The notes beneath the pieces were generated by a model. That model searched no databases. It was given only the letters and a program-made list of their open reading frames with translations, and was not told the DNA's origin. This document shows, in pieces, positions 55,493 through 64,000 of a stretch of DNA of 64,000 bases; position 1 is the first letter of the stretch; each line of letters begins with the position of its first letter. The stretch spans positions 1 through 64,000 of the forward strand of contig CAKZQC010000036.1 of the NCBI GenBank assembly GCA_937139495.1, given 5' to 3'. A program made the translations under genes and the position numbers. Source of the stretch: an uncultured Saprospiraceae bacterium (lineage in GTDB: Bacteria > Bacteroidota > Bacteroidia > Chitinophagales > Saprospiraceae).

Positions 55493-56188
55493 ATGCTTGT
55501 TATGCAACAAACAGAAGAAAACACGAAAGTACTACGACTACTTCGTATTGTATTTGATTTACAACTACAGCCTTGGGAACTTGGCAAATTTAGAGGCGCT
55601 ATTTCTGACAAAGTGGGACTAGAACACGATTGGTATCACAATCATCAAGTTGATGGTGGTGTATTGCATCGTTATCCACTGATACAGTACAAGCTACATC
55701 GTCAGCAACCCATGCTATTATATTTGGGTAGTGGTGTAGAAGAAGCCAAACACTTTTTTGATAAGCCAGACTGGACGCTACGTATAGGCAATCAAGTCCA
55801 TGATATGCGGATTCAGAATATGGAGCTGGAGCAGCACCGCTTAATGACGCTTGAAGATAAGGCGACGTATCGCTTGCACAATTGGATTGCACTCAATCCT
55901 CAGAACTTTGAACGTTATCAAGAAACAGAGAGTTTGGGGCAGCGAATACTACTTTTAGAACATATCTTGAAAGGTCATTTGTGGGGCTTTTGTGAAGGTG
56001 TGGATTGGCAACCAGAGGTAGATATTGAGGTATCAATTCTTAATGTTTTTTCGGATAAGTATGTTAGCTACCGAGGGGTAAAGGTATTGAGTTTCAAGCT
56101 TGATTTCAAATGTAATTTGTCCTTGCCTGATTTTGTGGCATTGGGCAAAGGTACAACAGTAGGCTTTGGCGTACTCCGCCGACAATAG
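55493..56188 (+). CDS. cas6: CRISPR endoribonuclease Cas6-like
   Basis: Cas6 cuts the precursor crRNA within each repeat to leave an 8-nt 5' handle. The 231-residue protein has the RAMP layout with the Gly-rich loop at its C terminus (FVALGKGTTVGFGVLRRQ), and is closest in look to the Cas6b-type of Bacteroidota. It is read rightward towards the array and ends at a terminator 76 bases before the array's trailer end; the array itself is read leftward. A second ATG (55502) is possible as start. Confidence 0.82.
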   Translation: MLVMQQTEENTKVLRLLRIVFDLQLQPWELGKFRGAISDKVGLEHDWYHNHQVDGGVLHRYPLIQYKLHRQQPMLLYLGSGVEEAKHFFDKPDWTLRIGNQVHDMRIQNMELEQHRLMTLEDKATYRLHNWIALNPQNFERYQETESLGQRILLLEHILKGHLWGFCEGVDWQPEVDIEVSILNVFSDKYVSYRGVKVLSFKLDFKCNLSLPDFVALGKGTTVGFGVLRRQ

Positions 56189-56215: not shown

Positions 56216-56256
56216 GCAGACTTCCTTTTTGGGAGGTCTGCTCTTTTTGTTTTTTG
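56216..56256 (+). terminator. Terminator of cas6
   Basis: GCAGACTTCC (56216-56225) and GGAGGTCTGC (56232-56241) pair with one G-U and run into a T-rich tract. Confidence 0.8.
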
Positions 56257-56263
56257 GGGGGGC

Positions 56264-59200
56264 GGTGAAATCCAACATAAAAGTAGAGCAAGGTTTAGAG
56301 TCACTTTTCCTGCTGCGATGCCTGACAAGGCATTCCAGTTTCAATCCAACATAAAAGTAGAGCAAGGTTTAGAGTTAGCAAATGAAACGCTACCGAATAT
56401 CGATTTCGAAAGGTTTCAATCCAACATAAAAGTAGAGCAAGGTTTAGAGAAAATGATCACCAAAGCGGAGGAGGAGCGAGCAAGACTCAGCACAGTTTCA
56501 ATCCAACATAAAAGTAGAGCAAGGTTTAGAGACATCATGGAACGCTTATGTTCCGTTAGCTATCAAGTTTCAATCCAACATAAAAGTAGAGCAAGGTTTA
56601 GAGACCCCTACCAATACGGTAAAGGCTTATTAGTTGGGGTTTCAATCCAACATAAAAGTAGAGCAAGGTTTAGAGAAAGGCGATATTTGAGAAACACGCA
56701 GCTCAAACGCTCGGTTTCAATCCAACATAAAAGTAGAGCAAGGTTTAGAGCTATTAAAAACAGCGAAACAGCGTAGTGCATTACATAGGTTTCAATCCAA
56801 CATAAAAGTAGAGCAAGGTTTAGAGGGACTAATATTGTTGCAGGCAAAGAATTAAATATTTCAGTTTCAATCCAACATAAAAGTAGAGCAAGGTTTAGAG
56901 TGTAAGAGCAAGACTTATGAATTTAAAGTCTAAAAGTGTTTCAATCCAACATAAAAGTAGAGCAAGGTTTAGAGGAATCAGCACGGTCGGAAATGACCAA
57001 AGAACAAAGAGTTTCAATCCAACATAAAAGTAGAGCAAGGTTTAGAGGACAAAAGGTAGATTATTACATCGATCGTTTCTTTGGTGTTTCAATCCAACAT
57101 AAAAGTAGAGCAAGGTTTAGAGTAGTATTAATCATACAGTGCTTAAAAACCCCTTACAGGTTTCAATCCAACATAAAAGTAGAGCAAGGTTTAGAGAAGC
57201 ATCAAGAATAGTCTGTCTGATGTTATCAAACGTTTCAATCCAACATAAAAGTAGAGCAAGGTTTAGAGGACCAGCTCTTCAAACCGCTATTATCAAGCAT
57301 TTCAGGTTTCAATCCAACATAAAAGTAGAGCAAGGTTTAGAGTTACATATTCCGATGTCATAACTCTACTGGTTTCTTCACCGTTTTTCAAAGTGACATT
57401 CCAGATGAAACGATTGTTCGTTTCAATCCAACATAAAAGTAGAGCAAGGTTTAGAGGAAAGGTCTTCAGTACTAACGTGTACATGAATTGAGTTTCAATC
57501 CAACATAAAAGTAGAGCAAGGTTTAGAGCTACCATGTACGTGCCTAGTGTTGTTTTCAAAGAAGTTTCAATCCAACATAAAAGTAGAGCAAGGTTTAGAG
57601 ACTCGCTATGGAGATTGAGATGTCTGCTGTGCGTAACAGTTTCAATCCAACATAAAAGTAGAGCAAGGTTTAGAGGTTCAAGCGGACGGTCTACGTTTTG
57701 GAAAGATACTGTTTCAATCCAACATAAAAGTAGAGCAAGGTTTAGAGTCATTAAAAAAGATTTAGATAGAATGTCTCTGGTAGAGTTTCAATCCAACATA
57801 AAAGTAGAGCAAGGTTTAGAGACAATAAGCGGTTAGATAGCAAGTTGCTATTTTGGGTTTCAATCCAACATAAAAGTAGAGCAAGGTTTAGAGGGTTATT
57901 CAAATGCTTAGCGCTAGTAGTCAAGTGTCAGGTTTCAATCCAACATAAAAGTAGAGCAAGGTTTAGAGAGCTGATAAAGTCCACGCTATTAAGTTTGGTC
58001 AGAGTTTCAATCCAACATAAAAGTAGAGCAAGGTTTAGAGAGGTCGCTTATCGGGGAAAGATAGAAATTCGTAAGCTAGTTTCAATCCAACATAAAAGTA
58101 GAGCAAGGTTTAGAGCAATGGTTCGGGTGTAAGAGATGCAAAGGGAGAGAGGAGTTTCAATCCAACATAAAAGTAGAGCAAGGTTTAGAGACAACAGACA
58201 ACTAAAACATTCAAATTGTTAATCGCAGTTTCAATCCAACATAAAAGTAGAGCAAGGTTTAGAGTATCGCCTTTAGCGAAATACAATGTACGTCTTTCGG
58301 GTTTCAATCCAACATAAAAGTAGAGCAAGGTTTAGAGAACAAGCTAAAACCATATCACAGCAACAATCAAGATGTTTCAATCCAACATAAAAGTAGAGCA
58401 AGGTTTAGAGCATAATATCAGTATTTGTTGTTGAATTAGTCGGCAAAGTTTCAATCCAACATAAAAGTAGAGCAAGGTTTAGAGAATGTCCATTTCTCTG
58501 ATTTGATTTATTTCTTTTTCAGTTTCAATCCAACATAAAAGTAGAGCAAGGTTTAGAGAGAAGCAGAAACAAGCACACCGCTTACAAAGGAGGTTTCAAT
58601 CCAACATAAAAGTAGAGCAAGGTTTAGAGAAACCTCTAGTCGTAGAAATATTCATCGATACAAAGGTTTCAATCCAACATAAAAGTAGAGCAAGGTTTAG
58701 AGAAGTGAGTCATCGCTCAGGTAACTCCAAAGAGGTCGCTGTTTCAATCCAACATAAAAGTAGAGCAAGGTTTAGAGTTCACACCTCCATTACCTACACC
58801 ACTTACTTATCGACACAGTTTCAATCCAACATAAAAGTAGAGCAAGGTTTAGAGGCGGTTCGTAGAGCAGGTCAACTAGGGTGTACCTTAGAGTTTCAAT
58901 CCAACATAAAAGTAGAGCAAGGTTTAGAGAATAACTCCACAATCCTTAGGGTTAACACAATAAACAAGTTTCAATCCAACATAAAAGTAGAGCAAGGTTT
59001 AGAGACTGCTTTTAAGATGACTCTCAAGGGATTTTAAATAGTTTCAATCCAACATAAAAGTAGAGCAAGGTTTAGAGACAACTATACACAAAGGTAGATA
59101 AAAAAATTTCAAAGTTTCAATCCAACATAAAAGTAGAGCAAGGTTTAGAGGTACATAAAATTCAAATCGAAGTTTTCAGAATTAACTGTTTCAATCCAAC

Positions 59201-60402
59201 ATAAAAGTAGAGCAAGGTTTAGAGCAAGAAGTCCGAACGTATCGACTTAATACAGGACTGTTTCAATCCAACATAAAAGTAGAGCAAGGTTTAGAGGAAC
59301 TTAATTTTTTCTTTGAAAAACCGTATCCCACAGTGTTTCAATCCAACATAAAAGTAGAGCAAGGTTTAGAGATTCAAGCGTTAAACCTCGAGCGTTTGAT
59401 TAACAATGTTTCAATCCAACATAAAAGTAGAGCAAGGTTTAGAGCAAACTGTGGAACGAGGTAGAATTACTTTCTTTAGAAAGTTTCAATCCAACATAAA
59501 AGTAGAGCAAGGTTTAGAGGGAAGACGAGAACTAGGTTATGAAATGAAATATCAAGAGTTTCAATCCAACATAAAAGTAGAGCAAGGTTTAGAGTGGATT
59601 TTTCGGCTTTGCGTCGGATTATACGTAGAAATGTTTCAATCCAACATAAAAGTAGAGCAAGGTTTAGAGACTTCAAAAAATACTCTGGCAAAGCCTAATA
59701 TTGGGGTTTCAATCCAACATAAAAGTAGAGCAAGGTTTAGAGAGTATTATATTCTTGTATGTAAGATAAAAAGGCTAAGTTTCAATCCAACATAAAAGTA
59801 GAGCAAGGTTTAGAGCACAATTACACCAAAAGGAACAAAAGGATAAGCGTAAGTTTCAATCCAACATAAAAGTAGAGCAAGGTTTAGAGAAAGAAAAACC
59901 CTATTGGCTTCGGCAACTCTGAATGTTTCAATCCAACATAAAAGTAGAGCAAGGTTTAGAGTAGACGCCCATCTGCCCAAAAAGGACATACGTACGGTTT
60001 CAATCCAACATAAAAGTAGAGCAAGGTTTAGAGAAGTGCTCGTTCAATAGTTGCCGGAGACGGCTTTATTGGTTTCAATCCAACATAAAAGTAGAGCAAG
60101 GTTTAGAGGATAACCAACAATCGTTGATTCAATCCCCTGAGAAGAGTTTCAATCCAACATAAAAGTAGAGCAAGGTTTAGAGACCATCATTGCAGTTCTT
60201 GCTGCATTGAATGCGAAAGTTTCAATCCAACATAAAAGTAGAGCAAGGTTTAGAGAATAGACTAATCACCACCAAGTATAAATAGTGCTTGGGTTTCAAT
60301 CCAACATAAAAGTAGAGCAAGGTTTAGAGCGGTTTAATAGTGCGTACAACCACTTAAACTTAGAAGTTTCAATCCAACATAAAAGTAGAGCAAGGTTTAG
60401 AG
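56264..60402 (-). CRISPR. CRISPR array: 56 repeats of 37 bp, 55 spacers, type III-B
   Basis: 55 identical 37-bp repeats, on the plus strand starting GTTTCAATCCAACATAAAAG and ending GAGCAAGGTTTAGAG, run from 56338 to 60402 with about 73-bp period. A 56th, degenerate copy at 56264-56300 (mismatches at positions 2, 4 and 5) marks the trailer end. Most spacers are 35-38 bp; one is 45 (56450-56494) and one 77 (57343-57419). Read on the minus strand the repeat ends GGATTGAAAC, the standard Cas6 8-nt handle, so transcription is leftward from the cas2 side. The leader-proximal, newest spacers are therefore near 60402. Apparent long reading frames made of the repeat are artefacts. Confidence 0.99.
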
Positions 60403-60482: not shown

Positions 60483-60785
60483 TTATAGCAACAAATATAA
60501 CGGTGGATTAATAATTGTCTCCAAACAGTTGCTATCTCCTATTATTGCAGCCGTCTGTAAGATAGGCAAAGACATCGGTATGATGATAATACTGTCTGTT
60601 TGACACAATTTTTTTTGGAGTAATTTTGATACCGCCTGACTCAATGCAGCATATTCTTTTTTGCTAATCAGTCCCGACAAAAAAACAGATAATTGAACCC
60701 TTTCGCATTGATGACGTGCCAATAATTTAGCCAGTGCCGTACGAATCTTATCATTTCCGATGTCATAACAAATCAAATAGTGCAT
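60483..60785 (-). CDS. cas2: CRISPR-associated Cas2
   Basis: The 100-residue protein has the Cas2 ferredoxin-like pattern: YLICYDIGNDKIRTALAKLL with the conserved Asp8, and RVQLSVFLSGL. It forms the dimer that bridges two Cas1 dimers during spacer integration. It follows the 183-residue membrane gene by 11 bases and directly adjoins the leader. Confidence 0.93.
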   Translation of the reverse strand: MHYLICYDIGNDKIRTALAKLLARHQCERVQLSVFLSGLISKKEYAALSQAVSKLLQKKLCQTDSIIIIPMSLPILQTAAIIGDSNCLETIINPPLYLLL

Positions 60786-60796
60786 ATAATGTTGGC

Positions 60797-61348
60797 TTAA
60801 ATTTCTTCTAGATAAATCGTTTTTTCTTGCTTGCGATAACGCATATACCCTACCGTCAAACCCGAAAAAAGTAAAAGTAAAGACTCTGGCAAATCAAAAT
60901 CAAACGGCTCTGCTTCTTCTACCTTTTTGTGTGGTGTACTACCAGCCTCCAGCTGTATAAGGTGACGCTCTGTAGGCTCATAATACAACTTGCCATTTTC
61001 TTTTTCGTACAACCAATACCGAACGCCTCGATGATGGCTACAAGCTCCCATTCCAGTATTTTTTTGCCGAATGCTATCCATGCAAATACAGCCGACTCGA
61101 TAGCCAATAGGCGTTTCTTTGACTCTTTTTTTTCGACCTACTCTATCCCGATCCGATGTTCTAAAAACTTCTTCTTCCTCCCAGCCAACTACCGCAGGGG
61201 CAATCAAAATAGGTGTATTGGGGCTTTCTATTACTCTTCGACTAGGTTCCGTTAGTAGCGTATGCCAATTATTTTCGTACACCACAGAGCCCACCGCAGA
61301 CAACGTGCTCGCACTCAAAAGATAAGGAAGTACCGCTTTGAAGTTCAT
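60797..61348 (-). CDS. Membrane protein with Cys/His motif, encoded between cas1 and cas2
   Basis: The 183-residue protein has an N-terminal signal or anchor (AVLPYLLSASTLSAVG), an extracytoplasmic middle, and a C-terminal hydrophobic helix (about 154-168, PESLLLLFSGLTVGY) followed by a basic tail. The middle contains VGCICMDS (Cys87, Cys89) and TGMGACSHHRGVRYWL (Cys103, His105, His106). The GACSHH.GV..WL string is the one I recall from DUF3761-like proteins, which suggests a small metal- or ligand-binding domain. It is 12 bases from cas1 and 11 from cas2, so it is co-expressed with the adaptation proteins. I know no function for it in CRISPR. Confidence 0.7.
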   Translation of the reverse strand: MNFKAVLPYLLSASTLSAVGSVVYENNWHTLLTEPSRRVIESPNTPILIAPAVVGWEEEEVFRTSDRDRVGRKKRVKETPIGYRVGCICMDSIRQKNTGMGACSHHRGVRYWLYEKENGKLYYEPTERHLIQLEAGSTPHKKVEEAEPFDFDLPESLLLLFSGLTVGYMRYRKQEKTIYLEEI

Positions 61349-61360
61349 AGCTATTGAAAT

Positions 61361-62377
61361 TTAAGTAACACTAAAAAATTTGAATAAAGTCGCCAATCGG
61401 TTTGCATCTATATCAATGTGCGTGTAGCGTTTTCGCTTCATATTCTGCTGTACTACTGCCGTATCCATATATTCAGTAAATGTCCCCAACAAAACTTTTT
61501 TGCCTACACCATTGAGCCACAGTCCATCTCTATCTGTTTTATCAAAATGCTCTTGCAACCTTACTTTTTGCTGCAAACAAACCTGCAACGCTACTTCGTC
61601 CGCCCAATAGCGATAATACTCAATTACATCATAAACCAAAGTAGGCTTGCTGTATCGATCAGTATGCAGCACCCCAACATAAGGATCAATTCCTGCCTTA
61701 ATTAAGCTCGTTTCCACGAGTGCATACAAAATGCCATACAGGTAATTAATCACCGCATTGAAAGGATCATAAGCAGGACGGCGATGCCGTTTCCTAAACT
61801 CATATTGCTTGGGCAATACTTGACTCAAACAAAAAAAATATTGCTTGGACGCACTCCCCTCCCAACCTCTAAAAGTAGCTCCAATCTCCTTCAGCGAGCG
61901 TATATCTTTTTCCGCTTGCCAATTGCCAAACTTAGCCAATACGCCTTCCAGTATTTCATGTCCTTTGCTTACCGCCAATTGCTGTTGCCACGTTTCAAAA
62001 CATTTCTGATGCTCCAAGTTCGTCAATACTGTTTGTTGATTACGGACTTTTTGTATCAATACTTCTTTTGTCCAAATCAACCCTTGGATATGTCCTGCAA
62101 ACAAGGCTTGATGCTTCCGAATAGTAGAAACAGAGCCATAAGCTGCACTCCACATCTGCCCTAGCACCCGCCCATTTTTTTGTACCAAAAAAACAGGAAT
62201 TTCATTTGCTATTGCCAATGCCAGTGCATCGCTGCTCACTCTTGCACCTTTGCACAAAAATATAGTCTTGACTTTGGCTGGAGCCAACAAAACCGCCTCT
62301 TGTTCTAGTGGCTTGACCACAAAAACACCATCTTGCACGCCCCAATACGCCCCATAACTGTCTATATGTAGTTGCAT
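61361..62377 (-). CDS. cas1: CRISPR-associated Cas1 integrase
   Basis: Cas1 integrates new spacers as a complex with Cas2. The 338-residue protein has the C-terminal helical domain with catalytic residues Glu173 (FRGWEGSASKQYFF), His238 (GVLHTDRYSKPTLVYDVIEYY) and acidic residues near 250-253. The NYLYGILYALVETSL motif is also present. It starts 9 bases after the stop of the secreted-protein gene, indicating an operon. Confidence 0.95.
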   Translation of the reverse strand: MQLHIDSYGAYWGVQDGVFVVKPLEQEAVLLAPAKVKTIFLCKGARVSSDALALAIANEIPVFLVQKNGRVLGQMWSAAYGSVSTIRKHQALFAGHIQGLIWTKEVLIQKVRNQQTVLTNLEHQKCFETWQQQLAVSKGHEILEGVLAKFGNWQAEKDIRSLKEIGATFRGWEGSASKQYFFCLSQVLPKQYEFRKRHRRPAYDPFNAVINYLYGILYALVETSLIKAGIDPYVGVLHTDRYSKPTLVYDVIEYYRYWADEVALQVCLQQKVRLQEHFDKTDRDGLWLNGVGKKVLLGTFTEYMDTAVVQQNMKRKRYTHIDIDANRLATLFKFFSVT

Positions 62378-62386
62378 AGGCGCTTT

Positions 62387-62809
62387 TTATTCTTCGTTAT
62401 CCCAAAAGAAAAAAATATGCACCGTTGTATCATCTGTCTTTATCGAAACGGTAATATTAGTTGCATAGTCATGCCAACGCATTTTCCCAATAGAAACATA
62501 TTCCTTATTACACATCTTAACCCAAGCATTTATTTCCGACAAAGGCTCCAAGACTTTTCGTCCAACACATTGCCTAGTTTCTTTGTCAAAATAATAGCAA
62601 TAGCCAGCCGAATAAGTATCTCCGTCTGCATTTAGATGTTTTTTGATACAATACATAAAAGGCAAATCACCTTCATCAGGCACTCCTTCTTCAAATTCAC
62701 AATCCGAATTGGCTTTAATTTCTGTTCGAGTAAGTCCTATTTGCCCCACCGCACCATAAGCACAAAGAAAGGTCAGGACAGCGACTAAAAGTATTTTTAT
62801 AGGTACCAT
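62387..62809 (-). CDS. Small secreted protein upstream of cas1
   Basis: The 140-residue protein has a signal peptide (about 1-22, ending YGAVGQ) and a mature beta-rich domain with six cysteines, including AGYCYYFDKETRQCVGRKV and EINAWVKMCNKEYV. It resembles the common Bacteroidota secreted hypotheticals with a conserved aromatic C-terminal strand pattern. It lies 9 bases before cas1. Whether it works with CRISPR or is a passenger is unknown. Confidence 0.65.
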   Translation of the reverse strand: MVPIKILLVAVLTFLCAYGAVGQIGLTRTEIKANSDCEFEEGVPDEGDLPFMYCIKKHLNADGDTYSAGYCYYFDKETRQCVGRKVLEPLSEINAWVKMCNKEYVSIGKMRWHDYATNITVSIKTDDTTVHIFFFWDNEE

Positions 62810-62848: not shown

Positions 62849-63034
62849 CTACTTGTTTGCAAAAAGCATAAAGAGAACTCCTCCAATGATCAAATCAAAT
62901 ACCTTGGTCAAGATTGCCCAAACAATCAAGAAAATTAACGCCGTACCAAAACTACTGGGTTCTACCCAATTCCAAGCGGTAGTTCCAGCCAACAGCCAAG
63001 AACCGACAAAAGCAATTATTGCAATACCTTCCAT
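62849..63034 (-). CDS. Small two-helix membrane protein upstream of the cas operon
   Basis: The 61-residue protein has two hydrophobic segments (IAIIAFVGSWLLAGTTAW; FGTALIFLIVWAILTKVF) and no soluble domain. Its stop is 39 bases before the secreted-protein gene on the same strand, so it may be the first gene of the adaptation operon. Coding status is reasonable from its composition but not certain. Confidence 0.5.
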   Translation of the reverse strand: MEGIAIIAFVGSWLLAGTTAWNWVEPSSFGTALIFLIVWAILTKVFDLIIGGVLFMLFANK

Positions 63035-63402: not shown

Positions 63403-63756
63403 TTATTCATACGCACGAAATTGCTCAAAAGCAAATCGCACTATTTTGTTTCCTTGTTCATCATAACTAACCAACCGCTCCGAAGTACTTGCATAACAAG
63501 GAATACCCACCTTTGTCAACAGCTTAACCAACTGATACGTCAACGTCATCTCCCCCATTACATGTACCGCTTTGGGCTGTAAGGCTGCTATTTCATCTAC
63601 ATACTTTAGAGCGAGCACCGCTACTTGTTCTGTACTCCAGCTCGCCTTTACATTCGGAAAAGCCATATCCACCACCATTCCAAATTGCTGCTGGGCAGCT
63701 TTTAGCTGTTCTGGCGACCAAGTGGATTTAGGGTGATTACTTAGGTTGATTAGCAT
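63403..63756 (-). CDS. Small type III CRISPR-associated alpha/beta protein, candidate ring nuclease-like
   Basis: The 117-residue protein starts MLINLSNHP and contains AVHVMGEMTLTYQLVKLL and GIPCYASTSERLV, a Rossmann-like strand-helix pattern. I recall similar LINLSNHP proteins beside type III CRISPR loci and a general resemblance to the small Csx15/Csx16/Csx20 ring-nuclease candidates, but cannot test it. It follows cmr6 by 11 bases and ends the operon, where an off-switch for cyclic oligoadenylate signalling would fit. The precise family is uncertain. Confidence 0.6.
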   Translation of the reverse strand: MLINLSNHPKSTWSPEQLKAAQQQFGMVVDMAFPNVKASWSTEQVAVLALKYVDEIAALQPKAVHVMGEMTLTYQLVKLLTKVGIPCYASTSERLVSYDEQGNKIVRFAFEQFRAYE

Positions 63757-63767
63757 GATACTTATCT

Positions 63768-64000
63768 TTATTGAGCCTCTTCAAAAAATCCATACCCTAC
63801 CGCTGTTTTAGCTCCTATCCCATGTTCAGATAAGGCTCTTTGAAGCCAATAGGCTGCTATTTTTGTTAGGGAGAAATCAGAGGTAAGTTTTTTGTTGCTA
63901 TTTTTTATCAATGGAGAATTATTTTTCACTTCATCTGATAGTGTTGTATTATTTTTTTGTTCTCCTAGTATAAATTTAAACTCTGTACCTGCTTTAACTG
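63768..64000 (-). CDS. cmr6: Cmr6 C-terminal part (truncated by window edge)
   Basis: The last 77 or so residues of a leftward gene are visible, ending ALSEHGIGAKTAVGYGFFEE. The GIGAKT..GYG(F)F string is the C-terminal Gly-rich RAMP loop of Cmr6, a Cas7-like subunit that caps the type III-B effector backbone. The rest, and presumably cmr1-cmr5, lie to the right. This identifies the locus as type III-B. Confidence 0.82.
   Translation of the reverse strand, partial: VKAGTEFKFILGEQKNNTTLSDEVKNNSPLIKNSNKKLTSDFSLTKIAAYWLQRALSEHGIGAKTAVGYGFFEEAQ

Follow-up and report, generated by a model that had tools for sequence, protein, structure and literature searches.

Type III CRISPR systems of Bacteroidota may carry a further gene in the slot between cas1 and cas2, namely that for CAPP_B, a protein of a DNA polymerase family, and CAPP_B proteins bind Cas1 and Cas2 (PMC8211822). 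Membrane effectors are also known in type III systems (PMC11014256, PMC10808066), and the main text of a survey from 2023 (FLSHclust) states that adaptation modules associate, among others, with transmembrane domain proteins (PMC10910872).

The window analysed here, a stretch of 64,000 nucleotides from an uncultured Saprospiraceae bacterium, harbours between cas1 and cas2 a gene, referred to as X, whose product is predicted to be an exported, membrane-anchored protein with a DUF3761-like core. X resembles CAPP_B in its slot and in its setting in type III systems of Bacteroidota, but CAPP_B is a DNA polymerase from a different family, for which no export signal is noted, whereas X lacks such a domain and gave no match to PF08800 (VirE_N/BT4734-like AEP). 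With Csx23 and Cam1 it shares the character of a membrane protein in a type III CRISPR setting; those proteins, however, are effectors switched by cyclic oligoadenylate, and X lies in an adaptation module. The FLSHclust proteins are, like X, transmembrane and linked to adaptation, and the main text of the survey gives no family, topology or taxon for them. No published description of the X family was found in the literature searched, which included the main text of the FLSHclust survey, and the family may already be listed in a survey supplement. On the evidence set out below, there is about an even chance that X is a dedicated, exported, envelope-anchored accessory of Cas1-Cas2 adaptation, acting from the envelope.

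Organization of the locus

A type III-B CRISPR locus lies at the end of the window (Table 1), and its cmr operon runs on past the window; beyond cmr6 the open reading frames are read as cmr5, cmr4, cmr3, cas10 and cmr1 from gene order and from the annotated plasmid of Aureispira sp. CCB-E. The initial annotation had placed a gene in the same orientation between cas1 and cas2, and this is confirmed by the coordinates of the open reading frames and by Pfam: X is separated from cas1 by 12 nt and from cas2 by 11 nt, and all three genes lie on the minus strand. The array holds 53 regular spacers of 34-45 nt with no duplicates, and none of them convincingly matched the DNA retrieved for this analysis.

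Table 1. Features of the CRISPR locus and segments of the X protein in the window.
Feature	Position	Strand	Size and identification
cas6b, far side of array	55493..56188	+	231 aa; PF17262 E 5.5e-26, PF17955 E 1.2e-21
CRISPR array, 37-nt repeat	56243..60402	.	55 exact repeat copies from 56338 on
cas2	60483..60785	-	100 aa; PF09827 E 2.9e-14; TIGR01573 E 4.6e-11
X, predicted exported, membrane-anchored DUF3761-like protein	60797..61348	-	183 aa, ATG start; ORF, 25-member alignment and hhalign
X, C-terminal helix	60803..60898	-	about residues 151-182; aligned with the transmembrane helix of relatives
X, conserved core, predicted extracytoplasmic (RxGCICMD...GAC....GVRxWLY)	60944..61117	-	about residues 78-135; alignments
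X, N-terminal hydrophobic segment	61274..61348	-	residues 1-25; aligned with signal peptides of relatives
cas1	61361..62377	-	338 aa; PF01867 E 1.3e-58; PADLOC Cas1b 287 bits
csx20, same type III-B locus	63403..63756	-	PADLOC Csx20 E 4.6e-41
cmr6, C-terminal part	63768..63998	-	PADLOC Cmr6 E 2e-6, with the contig past the window

Upstream of cas1, and ending about 9 nt before it, lies a gene for a secreted orphan of 140 aa (62387-62809, minus strand), which has no convincing relative among 199 genomes of the family; it was considered as a possible partner of X and dropped, as it does not recur at other loci, and it serves as a control for the recurrence of X. A hydrophobic open reading frame of 61 aa (62849-63034, minus strand) lies farther upstream in the same direction and has no family match. 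The genome of the window encodes a second Cas10 (G000:C27:149729-150118), distant from the only Cas1 found there.

The nearest named relative genome, that of Aureispira sp. CCB-E in the genus of the window, has the same arrangement on a plasmid (NZ_CP133672.1), where a protein search in the genus found X, 38% identical to that of the window and annotated as hypothetical, between cas1 and cas2. Four TIR-domain genes lie in tandem beside the CRISPR locus of this plasmid (L097:10233-14342). A divergent gene beside the cmr operon (L011:12982-14427) resembles a sigma-54-type regulator, and the plasmid has an annotated sigma-54-dependent regulator at the matching place.

Recurrence of the gene order cas1-X-cas2

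Linkage to cas1 and cas2 that recurs and is specific in position is what would be looked for in an adaptation accessory gene, and X shows it. Cas1 was found by a Cas1 search in 58 of the 199 genomes of the family, and each of the nearest Cas1 proteins is followed by X wherever enough contig remains. In the same 199 genomes the X profile gave 11 matches of at least 142 bits, every one adjoining cas1, and the next best match reached at most 29 bits. A scan of genome contigs with the X profile only, in which cas genes were not used as a criterion, returned 26 loci; all 22 that encode a full X have the order cas1-X-cas2, and the other four encode DUF3761-like proteins without cas genes. The hosts of the 22 loci are Saprospira grandis, Phaeodactylibacter, Flammeovirga and metagenome-assembled genomes (MAGs) of Saprospiraceae, Chitinophagales and Cytophagales, together with one MAG labelled Thermoanaerobaculia that may be mis-binned; the carriers form a group of marine and freshwater bacteria. 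The two sets share several sequences, so that about 25 distinct X proteins are known from them. No X was found in viral contigs, phage records or plasmids other than the Aureispira CCB-E plasmid.

The initial annotation had allowed for a one-off insertion, with homologues found everywhere away from cas genes, and the linkage described above speaks otherwise: the only unlinked relatives are proteins with a short DUF3761-like core that lack the X-specific flanks. In samples of about 395 genomes of the phylum and 395 of the class, leaving aside the genome of the window, all matches were short, DUF3761-like and no higher than 60 bits, and neither cas1 nor cas2 lay near them. The profile was built from cas-linked X proteins and could favour a cas-linked subfamily; nevertheless, the gap in scores and the X-specific motifs outside the core suggest that the divide between linked X and unlinked DUF3761 proteins is a real subfamily boundary. 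Two loci (L062 and L063) score only 59-65 bits and lack the X-specific flanks, yet their genes also lie between cas1 and cas2.

Individual loci vary in other respects. One of them (L058:1516-7122) has two cas1-cas2 modules in opposite orientation, X being present in one only, and two arrays with near-identical repeats; in another (L053:4169-5378) cas1 is split over two frames, and X and cas2 are intact.

Evolution of X with Cas1 and Cas2

In a Cas1 tree built by a quick method with SH-aLRT support only, the 30 Cas1 proteins with X as neighbour, together with one undecidable case, form a single clade (SH-aLRT 96), and 16 Cas1 proteins without X cluster separately; the L062/L063 pair, which has X, is placed apart from the X clade. 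That pair aside, X is co-inherited with one Cas1 clade, and its divergence follows that of Cas1 at least as closely as the divergence of Cas2 does: across 22 loci the Spearman correlations of pairwise distances were 0.78 for Cas1-X, 0.68 for Cas1-Cas2 and 0.53 for X-Cas2, and none of 2000 permutations was as high. The dN/dS values of X in three close pairs (about 0.12, 0.04 and 0.16) are near those of cas1, and X is under purifying selection.

The spacing between cas1 and X is tight in most loci and several hundred nt or more in a few. Several loci show a 4-nt overlap between X and cas2, of the kind that commonly signals coupled translation; in one subclade the overlap spans 50-182 nt, where the start codons are uncertain. 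The initial view that X must be translated together with the integrase was too strong; what the spacing in the window and the 4-nt overlaps in relatives point to is co-transcription with probable translational coupling. The overlap of X with cas2 in many loci would also suit a hitchhiker, retained only through operon structure, e.g. for translational coupling of cas2. That X is such a passenger is, however, highly improbable in view of the purifying selection on its protein, of a core that is invariant over about 25 diverged members and of the conserved export signals.

Effector context

Cas10 was found in 10 of 11 X-bearing genomes, and the system is of type III-B where it was identified (the window and the CCB-E plasmid). 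In most loci cas6b or an array lies close to X, and in few is an effector within reach: besides the window, only one of the compared loci (L048) has cmr genes within reach, and because this is so rare, cas1 and cas2, not the effector, are regarded as the constant partners of X.

The frequency of Cas10 among the X-bearing genomes, and the membrane effectors known from type III systems (PMC11014256, PMC10808066), could point to a membrane protein on the effector side, of the Csx23/Cam1 kind, that is activated by the signal of Cas10 and does no more than share a transcript with cas1 and cas2. Such a role is unlikely for X, whose place between cas1 and cas2 is constant and which goes with the Cas1 clade, whereas cas10 frequently lies at a distance of 6-60 kb or on a different contig. 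Moreover, the conserved domain of X is predicted to lie outside the cytoplasm, beyond the reach of a cytoplasmic messenger, and neither Pfam nor PADLOC detected a CARF or other nucleotide-binding domain in X; a weak CARF_RelE match to residues 3-69 of the window copy (E 0.0077) does not recur in its relatives at E 0.001.

Architecture of the X protein

The most conserved stretch of X, RxGCICMD...GAC[SG]GxGGVRxWLY, covers residues 84-114 of the window copy and is flanked by FRTS[DE] before and PTxRHxxHP after. The initial annotation had drawn attention to a CxC...GACSHHRG motif. Its cysteines are indeed conserved across the family (C87 in 24 of 25 members, C89 and C103 in all 25), but the histidines of SHHRG vary: position 106, the second of them and the histidine of the CSxHxG motif, is H in 17 members, R in five and F in three, and is invariant in 14 ordinary DUF3761 members. 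The motif is accordingly read as one of cysteines only, and a zinc site formed by CxC and CSHH was dropped because the histidines vary.

A signal or anchor and a C-terminal helix, both proposed at the outset for the window copy, are present there and are supported by clear equivalents in relatives, its own hydropathy being modest (19-residue Kyte-Doolittle maxima of 1.59 at the N end and 1.13 at the C end). In 19-20 of the 25 members an (A/G/S)|Q site comes after a hydrophobic segment, which we take together to be the usual signal peptide of Bacteroidota, and in 24 the C-terminal segment has a hydropathy of at least 1.6. These features argue strongly for export and membrane anchoring, and the domain is with high probability extracytoplasmic. 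The window copy is the most divergent X and has the weakest C-terminal helix in the family; GG is replaced by HR and HP by QL, with loss of H132 and of two core glycines, and this copy might be decaying.

The predicted bitopic architecture, with the conserved domain outside, together with the occurrence elsewhere of DUF3761 domains joined to SH3 domains in secreted proteins, which is consistent with a binding module, would fit an envelope sensor or regulator. Its outer domain would respond to phage contact or to stress on the envelope and, through some relay, turn the adaptation operon or Cas1-Cas2 activity on or off. This is rather doubtful, as the predicted cytoplasmic tail has just 3-11 residues in most members outside one subclade, so that little is left for signalling. 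The tails of one subclade are basic, but they are encoded where X overlaps cas2 and could simply result from that frame; for this reason a basic tail as docking site for Cas1-Cas2 was considered and not used as evidence.

AlphaFold2 predicts the core as a small beta-rich unit with a helix, at high confidence (mean pLDDT 88 for the core alone), and the C-terminal helix is also confident. Neither the whole model nor the core alone found a convincing fold relative (Foldseek E at least 0.25; VIA Z at most 3.8), and X has no sequence match in the PDB. None of the 25 members matched any Cas profile of PADLOC at E 0.001; the only NCBIfam matches were to SdrH_fam_CTERM (two members) and to a DDRRRQL repeat family (one member), neither of which is a Cas family, and no model in PADLOC, NCBIfam or PHROGs names the X family.

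Relationship to DUF3761

The description of X as DUF3761-like holds at family level by profile-profile comparison and is weak for the window copy alone, which scores 14.7 bits against PF12587 (E 0.045), below the Pfam gathering cut-off of 29 bits. PF12587 matches 12 of the 25 members, with a best E of 6.2e-4 and no convincing single-sequence match. In hhalign, however, the 25 X proteins aligned with 14 DUF3761-matching proteins over 40 columns (probability 99.2, E 5.9e-20), and homology of the X core to DUF3761 is, as judged from these profiles, firm at family level. As the curated cut-off is failed, membership of X in DUF3761 proper was dropped and homology retained. A genome survey with PF12587 was left out, since it gave zero matches even in genomes with visible DUF3761-like proteins.

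The two groups share the core motif C.D....G.GxCS.H.GV..W and are both mostly exported. They differ in that X has an extra cysteine (GCIC), lacks a conserved histidine pair and adds FRTS[DE], PTxRHxxHP and the C-terminal membrane helix, and in that no cas genes lie close to the ordinary members detected here. A secreted protein encoded at L098:1267-1674 combines a C/H-rich segment (HVATC...GYTPCKVC) with a DUF3761-like motif in its GCIC variant; the former is reminiscent of segments attached to exported nucleases. A 16.5-kb contig that resembles a small phage genome (L012:357-7892; G000:C30) encodes a protein with a DUF3761-like motif at its end (L012:3200-3793).

An extracytoplasmic domain (as predicted) encoded beside cas1 and cas2, and the C/H-rich segment of the protein at L098, would be compatible with an action of X on periplasmic DNA, e.g. 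if it bound or trimmed DNA on its way in, before this DNA is used for adaptation. Such an activity is very unlikely, given that no catalytic motif is recognizable in X, that no fold match was found and that the window copy has lost H132 and two glycines of the core.

Proposed role in spacer acquisition

From its fidelity to one Cas1 clade, its fixed position and the selection on it, X is most likely part of spacer acquisition, and very probably a functional part of the adaptation module, although its physical or functional tie to acquisition is a putative one. Many related Cas1-Cas2 modules are without X, which is therefore not generally required, and since its conserved part would lie outside the membrane, a catalytic role for X within the integrase complex itself is unlikely. 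With the core outside and Cas1-Cas2 in the cytoplasm, direct contact would be possible only through the less conserved helix or the tail.

In the mechanism that we favour, X would be a dedicated component of a cas1-X-cas2 module of type III-B systems in Saprospirales and some neighbouring Bacteroidota. Sec would export the protein, leaving a small cysteine-containing DUF3761-like domain outside the cytoplasm, the C-terminal helix would fix it in the inner membrane, a short tail would remain in the cytoplasm, and X would affect spacer acquisition from the envelope. In the simplest model it might do so by holding or activating Cas1-Cas2 where foreign DNA enters, directly via the membrane helix or the tail or via a partner; such tethering or coupling to the entry site is put forward tentatively. 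Equally tentative is the wider proposal that adaptation is organized at the cell envelope, X coupling the arrival of DNA or phage at the inner membrane to Cas1-Cas2 and so allowing sampling at the site of entry. In the type III systems of Thermus thermophilus the phage region that is thought to be the first to enter supplies most of the new spacers, but the authors also weigh selection as an alternative to a true bias of acquisition and cite work in its favour (PMC7515739); as selection may explain the source of those spacers, the data are compatible background only.

That an entire Cas1 clade keeps the gene for a predicted membrane protein within its adaptation operon suggests that in these bacteria the recording of infection is tied to the cell envelope. 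X may thus offer a concrete handle on where in the cell Cas1-Cas2 captures DNA, and also on the basis of its preference for newly arriving DNA over that of the chromosome.

The cas1-cas2 slot in a related Cas1 clade

Loci of the same family whose Cas1 belongs to a related clade (L028-L041) carry between cas1 and cas2 a BT4734/VirE_N primase-like gene that encodes about 340 aa (e.g. L030:2510-3532 and L036:2493-3515). These genes match PF08800 with E 2e-14 to 4e-18 and are apparently CAPP_B. Judged by these profile matches, two unrelated genes fill one slot in related modules, and X would be the second lineage-specific gene there, beside the Cas1- and Cas2-binding primase found elsewhere in Bacteroidota.
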